Shown: piece by piece, positions 1,887 through 5,975 of the stretch
How the letters are laid out: the number at the start of each line of letters is the position of its first letter
Position numbering within the stretch: position 1 is the first letter of the stretch
Program-made: the position numbers and the translations under genes
Notes under the pieces: model-generated
What the model saw: only the letters and a program-made list of their open reading frames with translations
Database searches by the model: none
Told to the model about the DNA's origin: nothing
NCBI GenBank assembly: GCA_027037705.1
Contig: JALVYZ010000059.1
Coordinates: forward strand, 1 to 8,132
Source of the DNA: a bacterium
Lineage (GTDB): Bacteria > DYJV01 > JALVYZ01
DNA: 8,132 bases
Direction of reading: 5' to 3'

Positions 1887-1916
1887 AAAATAGCATATCT
1901 GGAGAAAGATTGTCAA
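1887..1916 (-). promoter_or_regulatory. Candidate sigma-70 promoter of the TonB-dependent receptor gene
   Basis: On the minus strand a perfect -35 hexamer TTGACA lies at 1916-1911. TATTTT (4 of 6 consensus bases) follows at 1892-1887 after an 18-base spacer. A start about 7 bases beyond the -10 falls at 1880/1879, on the ATG itself, so the mRNA would be leaderless or nearly so. This fits the absence of any Shine-Dalgarno. No terminator separates queE from this promoter, so read-through is also possible. Confidence 0.45.
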
Positions 1917-1952: not shown

Positions 1953-2578
1953 AATCCAATAATTTTATGTAATTGTAAGTGTAATCTTACATAATTTAAT
2001 TTTTTTTCTAATATCCAATTTGCGAGTTTTTTAGGGGACAATAAATTATAAACTGGTGAAAGAGAAATATTTTTAACAAGATTATAAATTTTATATTTTT
2101 CTATTACATTAATTGACCATTTAAAATCTTCATAATTTGAAATTACAAATTTTATCTCATCATTAAAATTAATATAATTGAAATTTTTGAAATTATTTTT
2201 AGTACATTCTCCACTTGAAGGTGTTTTTATATCAATAATTTTAATCGCATTTTTATTTATTTTATCAACTAAAACTGAACCATTGGTCTCAATTAATACA
2301 TTAAATTTATTATTAATAAGTGAGTCTATTAAAAAGTAAATATTTTCTTGGATTAAAGGCTCACCTCCTGTTATTAAAACATTTTTTAATTGTGAAGATT
2401 TAACATTTTCAATAATTTCACTAATTTCAATAAATTCACCATCTTCATAAGCATATTTTGTATCACAATATTTACATCTTAAATTACATCCTGAAGTTCT
2501 AATAAAAAAAAAGGGGAATCCTGAAAAACTTGATTCCCCTTGAATGCTTATAAACATTTCATTAATTTTTAGTTTCAT
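1946..2578 (-). CDS. queE: 7-carboxy-7-deazaguanine synthase QueE (radical SAM)
   Basis: QueE converts 6-carboxy-5,6,7,8-tetrahydropterin to 7-carboxy-7-deazaguanine, the step that creates the deazapurine core of preQ0 and queuosine. The 210-residue length is normal. The substrate-binding SIQGES is at 11-16. The cluster motif C31-x3-C35-x2-C38 (GCNLRCKYCDT) holds the [4Fe-4S] that cleaves S-adenosylmethionine. GGEP at 71-74, ETNGS at 97-101, DIKTP at 116-120 and the C-terminal LQLHKIIG at 201-208 are all family signatures. The ATG overlaps the secF stop codon as ATGA and only a weak GAG lies upstream, so translation is probably coupled to secF. No other queuosine gene (queC, queD, queF) is in view, so the pathway is presumably scattered. 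Codons 13-25 contain a terminator-like hairpin, described separately. The stop is TAG at 1948-1946. Confidence 0.95.
   Translation of the reverse strand: MKLKINEMFISIQGESSFSGFPFFFIRTSGCNLRCKYCDTKYAYEDGEFIEISEIIENVKSSQLKNVLITGGEPLIQENIYFLIDSLINNKFNVLIETNGSVLVDKINKNAIKIIDIKTPSSGECTKNNFKNFNYINFNDEIKFVISNYEDFKWSINVIEKYKIYNLVKNISLSPVYNLLSPKKLANWILEKKLNYVRLHLQLHKIIGLK
2504..2541 (-). terminator. Terminator-like hairpin plus T tract inside the queE coding sequence
   Basis: On the minus strand AAGGGGAATC (2541-2532) pairs perfectly with GATTCCCCTT (2520-2511) across an 11-base loop. The last two T of the 3' arm begin an uninterrupted run of nine T (2512-2504). This is the layout of a Rho-independent terminator, yet it lies 37-75 bases into queE and encodes residues 13-25 of a conserved region. 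It could end yajC-secD-secF transcripts or act as an attenuator of queE. Structure is certain; function is inferred. Confidence 0.55.
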
Positions 2579-3456
2579 TTTGTTTTTTTCTCAAAAAATA
2601 ATAGAATTGGGCTTGCAATATAAATAGAAGAGTATGTACCAACAATTATCCCAATGAGTAATGCTAATGCAAAATCATGAATTACCCCACCGCCAAAAAT
2701 AAACAATGCTAAAACAACAAATAGTGTTGTTCCAGAAGTTAAAATTGTTCTTGATAGTGTTTCATTAATACTTTTGTTAATTATATTTGGGAAATTCCCT
2801 TTTACAAATTTTTTCATATTTTCCCTTATTCTATCAAAAACAATGATTGTATCATTTAAAGAATAACCAACGATTGTAAGAAAAGCTGCTACAACTGTTA
2901 AATCAAATTCTTTATTTAAAATTGAGAATATCCCAAGAGTAATTAAGACATCATGAAATAATGCTATAACAGCACCAAGAGCAAATCTAAATTCAAATCT
3001 AAGAGTAACATAAATCAATATCCCAATTAATGAGATCAAAATCGCTATTGCACCTTTTCTCCTTAAGTCTTTCCCAATTTTTGGTCCTACCATTTCTACT
3101 CTTCTTATTTCAAAAGAATTTTTGCCAAAAGTTTCTGTTAATTTTTTCTTTAAATTTTGTTGTAATTGCTCTGTATCAGCTTTAGTTAATGAGTATCTAA
3201 TTAAAAATTCATTTCCAGAATCTCCAAAATTCTGAATCCTTGCTTTTTTTACAACTTTTCTTAAATCATTTATTGTTACAGGTTTGTTAAATTTGACCTG
3301 AATAATTGTTCCACCTGCAAAATCAATTCCATATTTTAGTCCCTTTTTCATGGTAATTGAAATTAATCCAATTATAATTATTGCAAGGGAAATAGATATG
3401 AAAATTTTCCTTTTTGAGACAAAATCTATATTAACACCTGGTTTAATAAATTCCAT
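2575..3456 (-). CDS. secF: Protein translocase subunit SecF
   Basis: SecF is an inner-membrane partner of SecD in the SecDF-YajC complex, which uses the proton motive force to help SecYEG/SecA complete export of proteins. At 293 residues it has the normal length. TM1 is at about 17-35, followed by the family signature GIDFAGGT (43-50). A periplasmic domain follows to about 120, then VGPKIGKDL (123-131). TM2 to TM6 lie at roughly 135-152, 160-180, 186-207, 236-255 and 261-286. The TM4 motif GYSLNDTIIVFDRIREN (197-213) carries the conserved Asn-Asp pair. The start overlaps the secD stop by one base (TAATG) and has a strong AGGAGGT site inside secD. The stop overlaps queE by four bases. Stoichiometric production with SecD by coupled translation is likely. 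Confidence 0.97.
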   Translation of the reverse strand: MEFIKPGVNIDFVSKRKIFISISLAIIIIGLISITMKKGLKYGIDFAGGTIIQVKFNKPVTINDLRKVVKKARIQNFGDSGNEFLIRYSLTKADTEQLQQNLKKKLTETFGKNSFEIRRVEMVGPKIGKDLRRKGAIAILISLIGILIYVTLRFEFRFALGAVIALFHDVLITLGIFSILNKEFDLTVVAAFLTIVGYSLNDTIIVFDRIRENMKKFVKGNFPNIINKSINETLSRTILTSGTTLFVVLALFIFGGGVIHDFALALLIGIIVGTYSSIYIASPILLFFEKKTK

Positions 3457-5060
3457 TATTTCTTACCTCCTGGCATTTGTATCCCAATTCCAATTTTTGA
3501 CCTCTTTTGTAGTAGAGAATCAAATAAAAATCTTGATACAAATACCCCTGTATATATACTTGTTATAATCCCAATTGAAAGAGTAACTGCAAATCCTTTA
3601 ATTGGTCCAGTTCCATATTGATAGAGAACAATTGCAGCAATAAGAGTTGTTACATTAGCATCTACAATAGTTAAAAATGCTCTTGAAAATCCATTTTCAA
3701 CTGCGCTTCTAAATGGTTTTTTTAATCTAATCTCTTCTCTTATTCTTTCAAAAATTAACACATTTGCATCAACAGCCATACCAATTGTTAAAATAATACC
3801 TGCAATACCAGGTAAAGTTAATGTTGCTTCAAATGCCGCGAGACATGCAAGTATTAAAATTAGATTAAAAACTAATGCTATGTCTGCTATGAAGCCAGCT
3901 GTCCCATAGTAAAAAACCATAAAAACTAATACAATTGCACCACCTATAACCATTGAGAAGAAACCTTTTTTAATAGAATCTTTCCCCAATGATGGTCCTA
4001 CTGTTCTTTTTTCAAGTATTTTTACAGGCGCAGGCAATGCTCCAGCTCTTAAAACAATCGCTAAATCATGAGCTTCTTTTGTAGTAAATCTACCTGTTAT
4101 TGAAGCTCTTCCACCAGAAATTCTTTCCTGAATAACTGGGGCTGAATAAACATTGTTATCTAAAATTATTGCTAATTTTCTACCAACATTTTCAGCAGTG
4201 ATTTTATCGAAAATTTTTGCACCTTGAGAATCAAATTCAATAGCAACATATGGCTCATTATATCTTGTATCAATTTGCACTCTTGCATCTTTGATATATT
4301 CACCGGTTAATAGAACTTTTTTATAAACAACAATCGGTGTTTTAGAAATTATCTTCCCAAATTCATCTTTATTTATCTTATAAAGAACTTCACAATCTTC
4401 TGGGATTTTACCATTTTTAATGTCTTGCGGAGAAATATTTTCATTAACTAATTTAAATTCCAACCTTGCAGTTTTTCCAATAATTTTTAGTGCTCTATCT
4501 GGGTCTTTAATTCCAGGCAATTCAACTAATATCCTTCTTTCTCCAAGTGCTCTAATTTCAGGCTCTGTCACTCCAAACTGGTCAATTCTGTTTCTGATTG
4601 TTTCAACAGCTTGTTCAACAGAATATCTTTCAAGATATTTTTTATATTTTGGAGTAAAAGAAATGATGACTTTATTTTGAGTGTCTTTTACAATTTCAAA
4701 ATTTTTATATTGATCTGCAATTATTCCTCTTATTTGAGTTATATTATTATATGGAGAAATAATTTCTAAATTTAAACCTTTTCTTATTATTTTTTCAAAT
4801 TTTATATTATTTTGTTTAAGTGTTTCTTTTATATCATCAATATATCTATCTAAATTAGCTTTTAAAGCTTCATCTGTTTCTACTTCCAAAATTAAATGCA
4901 TCCCCCCTTGCAAATCCAAACCTAAATGGATTTTATTTGTAGGAAAAATTTTTTGCCAAAATTGAGGAAGATTTGGAGTAACAGAAGGAATTAAATAGAT
5001 AATAGCAAAAATAATCGATAATGCAATAATAATCCCACGGATTTTCAGACTACGGATCAT
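3456..5060 (-). CDS. secD: Protein translocase subunit SecD
   Basis: SecD is the larger subunit of the SecDF complex in the inner membrane. Its periplasmic P1 domain grips emerging preproteins while proton flow through the membrane part drives release. At 534 residues it is close to the usual size for bacteria with separate secD and secF. TM1 is at about 8-24, followed by GLDLQGGMHL (47-56), the D1 signature. The P1 domain runs to about 345. RTVGPSLGKDSI (352-363) leads into five C-terminal helices at roughly 366-384, 391-408, 415-435, 463-482 and 488-512. The TM4 motif GMAVDANVLIFERIREE (427-443) contains Asp431, at the position of the aspartate needed for proton transport in studied SecD proteins. 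GAGGT lies seven bases before the ATG. The start overlaps the yajC stop as ATGA and the stop overlaps secF by one base. Confidence 0.97.
   Translation of the reverse strand: MIRSLKIRGIIIALSIIFAIIYLIPSVTPNLPQFWQKIFPTNKIHLGLDLQGGMHLILEVETDEALKANLDRYIDDIKETLKQNNIKFEKIIRKGLNLEIISPYNNITQIRGIIADQYKNFEIVKDTQNKVIISFTPKYKKYLERYSVEQAVETIRNRIDQFGVTEPEIRALGERRILVELPGIKDPDRALKIIGKTARLEFKLVNENISPQDIKNGKIPEDCEVLYKINKDEFGKIISKTPIVVYKKVLLTGEYIKDARVQIDTRYNEPYVAIEFDSQGAKIFDKITAENVGRKLAIILDNNVYSAPVIQERISGGRASITGRFTTKEAHDLAIVLRAGALPAPVKILEKRTVGPSLGKDSIKKGFFSMVIGGAIVLVFMVFYYGTAGFIADIALVFNLILILACLAAFEATLTLPGIAGIILTIGMAVDANVLIFERIREEIRLKKPFRSAVENGFSRAFLTIVDANVTTLIAAIVLYQYGTGPIKGFAVTLSIGIITSIYTGVFVSRFLFDSLLQKRSKIGIGIQMPGGKK
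3465..3471 (-). promoter_or_regulatory. Ribosome-binding site of secF embedded in secD
   Basis: AGGAGGT on the minus strand, eight bases before the secF ATG, lies within the last codons of secD (the PGGKK tail). It supports the ATG at 3456 and allows re-initiation at the TAATG junction. Confidence 0.75.
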
Positions 5061-5395
5061 TTTTTGACCTCTTTATTTGGATTTTTTTGACCATTCAATT
5101 TTGTACTTACAAAGTTTCTTGCAACTTTTACTTTAACATTTTCAGCCACTTCTAATGTTATAAAATCATCTGTTATCCCAACAATTTTGCCATATAAACC
5201 GCCAGAAGTTATAATTTCATCTCCCTTTTGTAAATTCTGAATCATTTCTCTATGTTGTTTTGCCCTTTTTTGTTGTGGTCTAATTAATAAAAAATAGAAA
5301 ACAACAAAAATTAATATAATTGGGATAAATCCTGCAATTGGATTTGGTTGTCCTCCTGCAGCTTTTCCTGCAGCATATAATGTTTCGACTAACAT
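5057..5395 (-). CDS. yajC: Sec translocase accessory subunit YajC
   Basis: YajC is a small inner-membrane protein that co-purifies with SecDF and SecYEG and is dispensable where tested. The 112 residues contain one hydrophobic segment at about 20-38 (AGFIPIILIFVVFYFLLI). The family hallmark IRPQQKR (38-44) follows, and then a small cytoplasmic beta-domain with KGDEIITSGGLYGKIVGI (57-74). The start has a strong AGGAGG five bases upstream. It is the first gene of the yajC-secD-secF-queE run and its TGA overlaps the secD ATG by four bases. Gene order and motifs together make the assignment firm. The Lys/Asn-rich tail (about 99-112) looks disordered. Confidence 0.97.
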   Translation of the reverse strand: MLVETLYAAGKAAGGQPNPIAGFIPIILIFVVFYFLLIRPQQKRAKQHREMIQNLQKGDEIITSGGLYGKIVGITDDFITLEVAENVKVKVARNFVSTKLNGQKNPNKEVKK

Positions 5396-5421: not shown

Positions 5422-5448
5422 TTTATAAACTAAATCCGAGCATATGAA
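5422..5448 (-). promoter_or_regulatory. Weak candidate promoter of the yajC operon
   Basis: TATAAA (5 of 6 consensus bases) lies at 5427-5422 on the minus strand. TTCATA (4 of 6) lies at 5448-5443 with a short 15-base spacer. The -35 would fall in the loop and arm of the neighbouring palindrome, so that palindrome could serve as an operator as well as a terminator. The -35 is poor, so this is tentative. Confidence 0.3.
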
Positions 5449-5464
5449 TTAATATGCTCGGATT
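5433..5464 (-). terminator. Perfect 13-bp hairpin between the ferritin-like gene and yajC
   Basis: AATCCGAGCATAT (5433-5445) and ATATGCTCGGATT (5452-5464) are exact reverse complements around a six-base loop. The hairpin lies 43 bases past the ferritin-like gene stop. On the minus strand it is followed by the moderately T-rich TTAGTTTAT. I read it as the terminator of that gene. The lack of a clean T tract leaves open a protein-binding operator for yajC. Confidence 0.55.
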
Positions 5465-5507: not shown

Positions 5508-5975
5508 TTAATTTTCCTGCATGAATGTTTCTTCATAATCTCTTTCAAGTTTATCTAAGTGCTTCTTTTCTTCATCTCTAAGTTTTTCAAAAAGATAAGA
5601 CATTTTACTACCTTTACATGCATTCATTAAATTGGTATAAAATTTAATCGCCTTTTTTTCACTTGTAATTGCATAAAGGTAAATATCTTGTAAAGAAGAG
5701 TCCTCAGAAATTTTATTTTCTTCAACTAAATACTCAGAGAAACTAAATCCTTCAGGGACATTACCTTCACCTAATTCTAATACTTCTTCATCAAGTAAAG
5801 CTTTTTCTAATTTATATTTATGTTCTAATTCGTCAGCTGCTAACTCTTTTAATAGGACCTTTGCTCCTTTATCCTGAACTTTCTTTGAAGCCATATAATA
5901 AGTTTGAAAAGCATCTTCTTCTGCTTTTATTGCAACTTTTAGAGCCTCTTCAAAGAACATACAATATTCTTGCAT
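5508..5975 (-). CDS. Ferritin-like di-iron protein, rubrerythrin type without rubredoxin domain
   Basis: The 155-residue protein is predicted to fold as a four-helix bundle binding two irons. The ligand pattern is that of the rubrerythrin/ferritin superfamily: Glu19/Glu20 in helix 1, an ExxH in helix 2 (E49-L-E-H52), Glu106 in helix 3 and a second ExxH in helix 4 (E136-K-K-H139). An acidic crossover of about residues 62-96 joins the two halves, as in rubrerythrin. There is no C-terminal CxxC pair, so the rubredoxin electron-transfer domain is absent; Cys5 and Cys120 are isolated. Related proteins reduce peroxide or handle iron in anaerobes and microaerophiles, but for this domain-only form the exact reaction and electron donor are not known. 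It has its own candidate promoter and a hairpin downstream, so it is likely transcribed alone. A GGAGGTG site six bases upstream favours this ATG over the one at codon 6. Confidence 0.85.
   Translation of the reverse strand: MQEYCMFFEEALKVAIKAEEDAFQTYYMASKKVQDKGAKVLLKELAADELEHKYKLEKALLDEEVLELGEGNVPEGFSFSEYLVEENKISEDSSLQDIYLYAITSEKKAIKFYTNLMNACKGSKMSYLFEKLRDEEKKHLDKLERDYEETFMQEN

Follow-up and report, generated by a model that had tools for sequence, protein, structure and literature searches.

Whether the stop signal of one gene can be carried by the coding sequence of the next is the question raised by a terminator-shaped hairpin located within the first codons of queE in an 8,132-nt stretch of DNA from an uncultured bacterial lineage (contig JALVYZ010000059.1 of assembly GCA_027037705.1; hereafter the window, and its genome G000). 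The gene encodes a radical SAM 7-carboxy-7-deazaguanine synthase (1946-2578; NCBIfam QueE models, best TIGR04349, E 6.9e-70, under the curated cut-off) and closes a presumed operon that begins with yajC (5057-5395; TIGR00739, E 2.7e-30) and continues with secD (3456-5060; TIGR01129, E 1.7e-151) and secF (2575-3456; delimited as an open reading frame and matched by TIGR00966, E 6.9e-103). All four genes are on the minus strand and overlap consecutively, and the TGA of secF shares the ATGA at 2578-2575 with the ATG of queE. Upstream of the operon, a 13-bp hairpin (AATCCGAGCATAT...ATATGCTCGGATT, 5433-5464, minus strand) separates yajC from a ferritin-like gene (5508-5975), of which it is likely the terminator. 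Downstream of queE, a 67-nt gap precedes a TonB-receptor-like ORF beginning near 1879; the gap contains a promoter-like TTGACA-18-TATTTT with TG (1887-1916, minus strand), and no terminator was seen there at the end of queE.

Only one other genome of the phylum, termed G001, is present in the collection, and it belongs to the same order and to a different family; a search of the collection for further relatives returned only the record of G001 itself, the phylum consisting of two genomes. A public copy of the relevant G001 contig (DYJV01000009.1, here L122; sample SulCav; ~32% GC) is labelled Candidatus Methylomirabilis, a label that may be wrong because G001 groups with the window genome in the two-member phylum. 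The order secD-secF-queE is retained in G001, where secF also overlaps queE (ATGAGTAA) and radC overlaps behind it, while the adjacency of secF and queE was found only in these two genomes among the queE loci compared. Both genomes also contain queC and two copies each of the tRNA-guanine transglycosylase gene tgt (L211, L212, L213 and L214, all exceeding the family cut-off), so that the queuosine pathway is likely active. In E. coli, queuosine synthesis is also tied to the Sec operon, in the order queA-tgt-yajC-secD-secF. Rho is present in both genomes. A clear tmRNA was detected in G001, and none scored above the Rfam gathering score in G000 (best E 1.6e-5), which may reflect incompleteness of the assembly.

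On the minus strand, read 5' to 3', the segment AAGGGGAATC (2541-2532) pairs with GATTCCCCTT (2520-2511) around the 11-nt loop AAGTTTTTCAG (2531-2521), giving a hairpin at 2511-2541 that spans queE codons 13-23. It runs into nine consecutive T (2512-2504) encoding Phe23-Phe24-Phe25, the first two of which are paired within the stem. The perfect 10-bp stem, the loop and the T run are thus exactly as described in the earlier note, over codons 13-25 (CAA GGG GAA TCA AGT TTT TCA GGA TTC CCC TTT TTT TTT; 2504-2541). The RNA folds at -15.5 kcal/mol with a z score of -4.8 against dinucleotide shuffles, so that a stable GC-rich hairpin on the transcribed strand is followed immediately by a U-rich tract. 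A recount bore out that Gly14 is the sole GGG among nine glycine codons and Pro22 the sole CCC among five proline codons. That synonymous alternatives would break the stem held for Gly14, where GGA, GGT or GGC reduces the fold to between -8.3 and -8.6 kcal/mol, and for CCA at Pro22 (-10.5), and it failed for CCT at Pro22 (-12.8) and TTT at Phe21 (-12.6), with which the stem survives through G-U pairs.

Several other identities were considered and rejected. A repeat or mobile element was rejected because the genome has only one copy of this stem, and no Rfam family such as a riboswitch or T-box matched above its gathering score in the window, the wider contigs yielding only tRNAs. A mis-called queE start, which would leave the hairpin noncoding, is contradicted by the in-frame, QueE-conserved SIQGE before the stem and GFPFFF/GCNLRC after it. 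A terminator on the opposite strand is rejected because there A9 precedes the stem, and queuosine-sensing attenuation through NAY codons because the codons before the stem include at most one NAY in G000 and none in G001. Nor is the hairpin a general feature of queE: the GFPF.F signature with a T run was found only in G000 and G001 among the QueEs examined, the viral QueEs examined were without the hairpin and T run, and the Phe23-24-25 run (GFPFFF) occurs in only these two among 386 genomes.

The likeness to a terminator was assessed against the terminators of the same genomes. Terminator-like sites in noncoding DNA numbered 27 in G000 and 31 in G001, against 5 and 8 in the same sequence read backwards, and both genomes accordingly use intrinsic terminators. 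By a d'Aubenton-Carafa-type score computed with an in-house script, the queE site ranked 9th of 32 in G000 and 3rd of 39 in G001, within a reference set that is itself predicted and enriched over the reversed control by those ratios (27:5 and 31:8). The description of the hairpin as terminator-shaped was therefore upheld, since it is built like an intrinsic terminator and ranks among the better ones of its genome. In its GC-rich stem, its U-tract and its usual stop-to-stem distance it resembles the gene-end terminators, with a score that exceeds their median in G000 and is the third highest for G001, but it differs from them in lying wholly inside the next gene and in also encoding conserved QueE residues.

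The features that make the hairpin conspicuous could have arisen by coincidence. The codons of the conserved peptides QGE and FPFFF naturally complement each other (GGN GAR with TTY CCN), and a phenylalanine run in AT-rich DNA is a U run. Both genomes might then have arrived at GGG/TTC/CCC by accident, and the structure might be without function or a weak terminator that is tolerated. This reading, which we regard as somewhat unlikely, was examined with a null model in which the protein was fixed and codons were drawn from the usage of the genome, with and without codon-pair context. In G000 (400 genes, 510 kb, 27% GC), GGG makes up 10.9% of glycine, CCC 3.5% of proline and TTC 10% of phenylalanine codons, and the probability of a terminator-like hairpin at the queE stretch was ~0.007 at -12 kcal/mol or below and 0.0012-0.0016 at -14 or below. 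Across the gene samples, about 0.5 intragenic sites would be expected by chance in G000 and about 1.0 in G001, and one was found in G000; such sites are unsurprising because the QueE peptides are self-complementary in their codons (Gly-Glu against Phe-Pro), with Phe-Phe-Phe as a ready U run. Wherever a genome is AT-rich, the protein sequence by itself (QGE...FPFFF) would provide half of the stem as well as the U run, and the site had first been picked by eye across many windows. Taken alone, the G000 hairpin is compatible with chance because ~0.5 sites are expected in 400 genes, and the earlier argument that two rare codons indicate selection does not follow from this genome by itself.

Among the 400 G000 genes, the queE site was the only wholly intragenic one on the sense strand at -12 kcal/mol or below, the other site filed under genes (L069) overlapping a gene end. 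In G001, one site (L186) lies 33 nt inside an ORF that, judging from the sequence, probably has its start called too far upstream. A second terminator-shaped hairpin of G001 (L208:8385-8408) lies 66 nt into a membrane-protein gene and seems truly internal; an ortholog of that gene, sought in G000 as a conservation control, was not found.

The evidence that carries the argument is the recurrence of the queE hairpin in G001 (same-site features L002/L078). The QueE proteins of the two genomes are 56% identical, and at the same codons G001 has the hairpin AGGGGGAATCT / AGGTTTCCCCT followed by an identical T9, at -16.2 kcal/mol. As RNA, AGGGGGAATCU pairs with AGGUUUCCCCU in 11 pairs around a loop of 8, followed by U; relative to G000, the pairing is offset by one base and the structure is retained. 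Within codons 13-25, GGG, GAA, TTC, CCC and TTT TTT TTT are common to both genomes. The codons of Gln13, Ser16, Ser17 and Gly20 differ, and the changes at Gln13, Ser16 and Gly20 leave a strong stem in the shifted register, which speaks against coincidence.

How much such recurrence means depends on the divergence of silent sites, which was estimated from 94 reciprocal-best gene pairs. Where the amino acid was identical, the same codon was used for 0.33 of glycines (0.304 expected under independence), 0.432 of prolines (0.396) and 0.781 of phenylalanines (0.766). These rates barely exceed expectation, and silent sites are therefore nearly saturated between G000 and G001. The largest departure, 0.384 against an expected 0.261, is that of serine and stems from the poor interchange between its two blocks of codons. 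Retention between the genomes was 27.5% for GGG, 25% for CCC (20 cases) and 24.7% for TTC, together ~1.7%. With the G001 protein and codon usage fixed, the probability of a hairpin at -12 kcal/mol or below was 0.013, and at -14 or below 0.004, values that hold with codon-pair context and tell against coincidence. Coincidence is favoured, on the other side, by the stem codons as a group, which are no better conserved than the remainder of queE (same codon at 5/8 against 54/102). The silent-site comparison had been named beforehand rather than chosen post hoc, and it is a single comparison of two genomes at p ~0.01. The proposal of a selected structure survived it, since a relative free to lose the stem and T run at near-saturated silent sites has kept both, beyond what the protein demands (one relative, p ~0.004-0.013). 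This recurrence, as read from the two sequences, is evidence that carries weight and is not overwhelming.

On these grounds, the 5' coding region of queE is considered to embed an intrinsic, Rho-independent terminator that would end part of the yajC-secD-secF transcripts and lower queE expression, a reading to which we assign a probability of about 0.62; the hairpin probably trims or tunes the operon RNA just past secF. RNA polymerase that has passed through yajC-secD-secF would transcribe the GC-rich stem, 33 nt downstream of the secF stop (32 nt in G001), and then U9, where a share of the polymerases would halt and leave a stable 3' end for the secDF mRNA. The remainder would read through into queE, and in G001 also into the overlapping radC, so that QueE output would be set below SecDF output inside one tightly packed operon. 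From the observed anatomy, fold, same-codon recurrence and likeness to the gene-end terminators of both genomes, we infer termination, its partial efficiency and a benefit of having less QueE than SecDF. A further extension, in which the lineage would have fixed the two rare silent codons together with the unusual Phe23-24-25 run so as to hold a terminator that sets the secDF:queE ratio, a regulatory RNA signal thus having shaped the amino-acid sequence of the enzyme, appears doubtful.

The earlier note had also suggested that ribosomes might override the terminator or make it an attenuator. Ribosomes reinitiating at the ATGA would cover the stem and permit read-through, whereas poor translation would expose it and cut off queE. 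The secF-queE overlap in both genomes makes coupling plausible, and ribosomes in E. coli do repress nearby terminators (PMC4824070). In that organism, however, the tR2 terminator is fully efficient once it lies >27 nt downstream of a stop codon. Terminators also function well inside the first 100 bp of a coding region, and one located 30 bp after the AUG loses only ~10% to translation (PMC4824070). Measured against this tR2 threshold of ~27 nt, neither a stop nor a stalled ribosome falls within range of the stem, the distance from the queE ATG being 37 nt in G000 and 40 nt in G001, and that from the secF stop 33 and 32 nt. Coverage of the stem by a ribosome crossing from secF, or by one starting on queE, is hence unlikely.

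The spacing of other terminators bears on the same point. Gene-end terminators lie a median of 7 nt past the stop codon in G000 and 22.5 nt in G001. In B. subtilis and Listeria, where the distance from coding sequence to transcript end is 38 and 37 nt, transcription and translation are loosely coupled (PMC12207403). Because the gene-end terminators similarly hug stop codons in G000 and G001, this small set suggests by analogy that ribosomes do not closely follow RNA polymerase there, which weighs against a switch governed by translation. Moreover, when 346 nt (G000) and 355 nt (G001) were folded, each RNA formed the terminator stem, the two had no mutually exclusive antiterminator stem in common, and no leader peptide was seen, so that a true attenuator is unsupported. 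Control by translating ribosomes is accordingly judged very unlikely. By analogy with the E. coli distances and the proximity of gene-end terminators to stop codons, a plain, translation-independent partial terminator that would serve secF and leave queE dependent on read-through is favoured over a ribosome-covered switch.

The stem might alternatively act on RNA that has already been made, either by blocking 3' exonucleases or by marking a processing site, and so provide a stable secDF 3' end without any termination. Situated immediately behind secF, a strong stem would indeed shield RNA trimmed back to it, but the U9 directly after the stem would be unneeded for such a role and has been kept in both genomes, so that a stability or processing element seems scarcely probable.

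For the favoured partial terminator, counterparts exist in other bacteria. Mapping of RNA 3' ends in E. coli has revealed ORF-internal ones with features of intrinsic terminators (PMC7815308), and of 994 3' ends located inside ORFs in Borrelia burgdorferi, 151 qualified by score as intrinsic terminators (PMC10319736). The queE site resembles these internal or premature terminators, located by 3'-end sequencing, in having a hairpin and U-tract inside an ORF; it differs in being predicted from sequence only and in being kept at the same codons by a relative. The closest positional match is W48, a synthetic tricistronic construct in E. coli that has tR2 at 30 bp downstream of a start codon, where the terminator worked behind an upstream gene with ~10% of its efficiency lost to translation (PMC4824070). 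The queE stem lies at nearly the same position, 37-40 nt after the ATG, whereas W48 is artificial, belongs to another organism and has a terminator that is not conserved coding sequence. Ribosome-controlled attenuators of the pyrBI leader type (PMC4824070) share with it a translated sequence before the terminator, but in the queE case no short leader peptide, pause or antiterminator element was seen, and the site lies in a conserved enzyme gene. A literature search found no paper describing a terminator in queE; ORF-internal terminators as such are already known, and what is new is the queE example and its recurrence across families.

If the reading is correct, the locus would provide a clean natural case in which the stop signal of one gene lies inside the conserved codons of the next, kept over a family-level distance that has nearly randomised the silent sites. 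Such a case would also serve as a warning that terminator callers skipping coding sequence miss real operon boundaries. For the organisms themselves, the locus would explain how overlapping genes can differ in output without any intergenic space, and it would bear on queuosine synthesis tied to the Sec operon.
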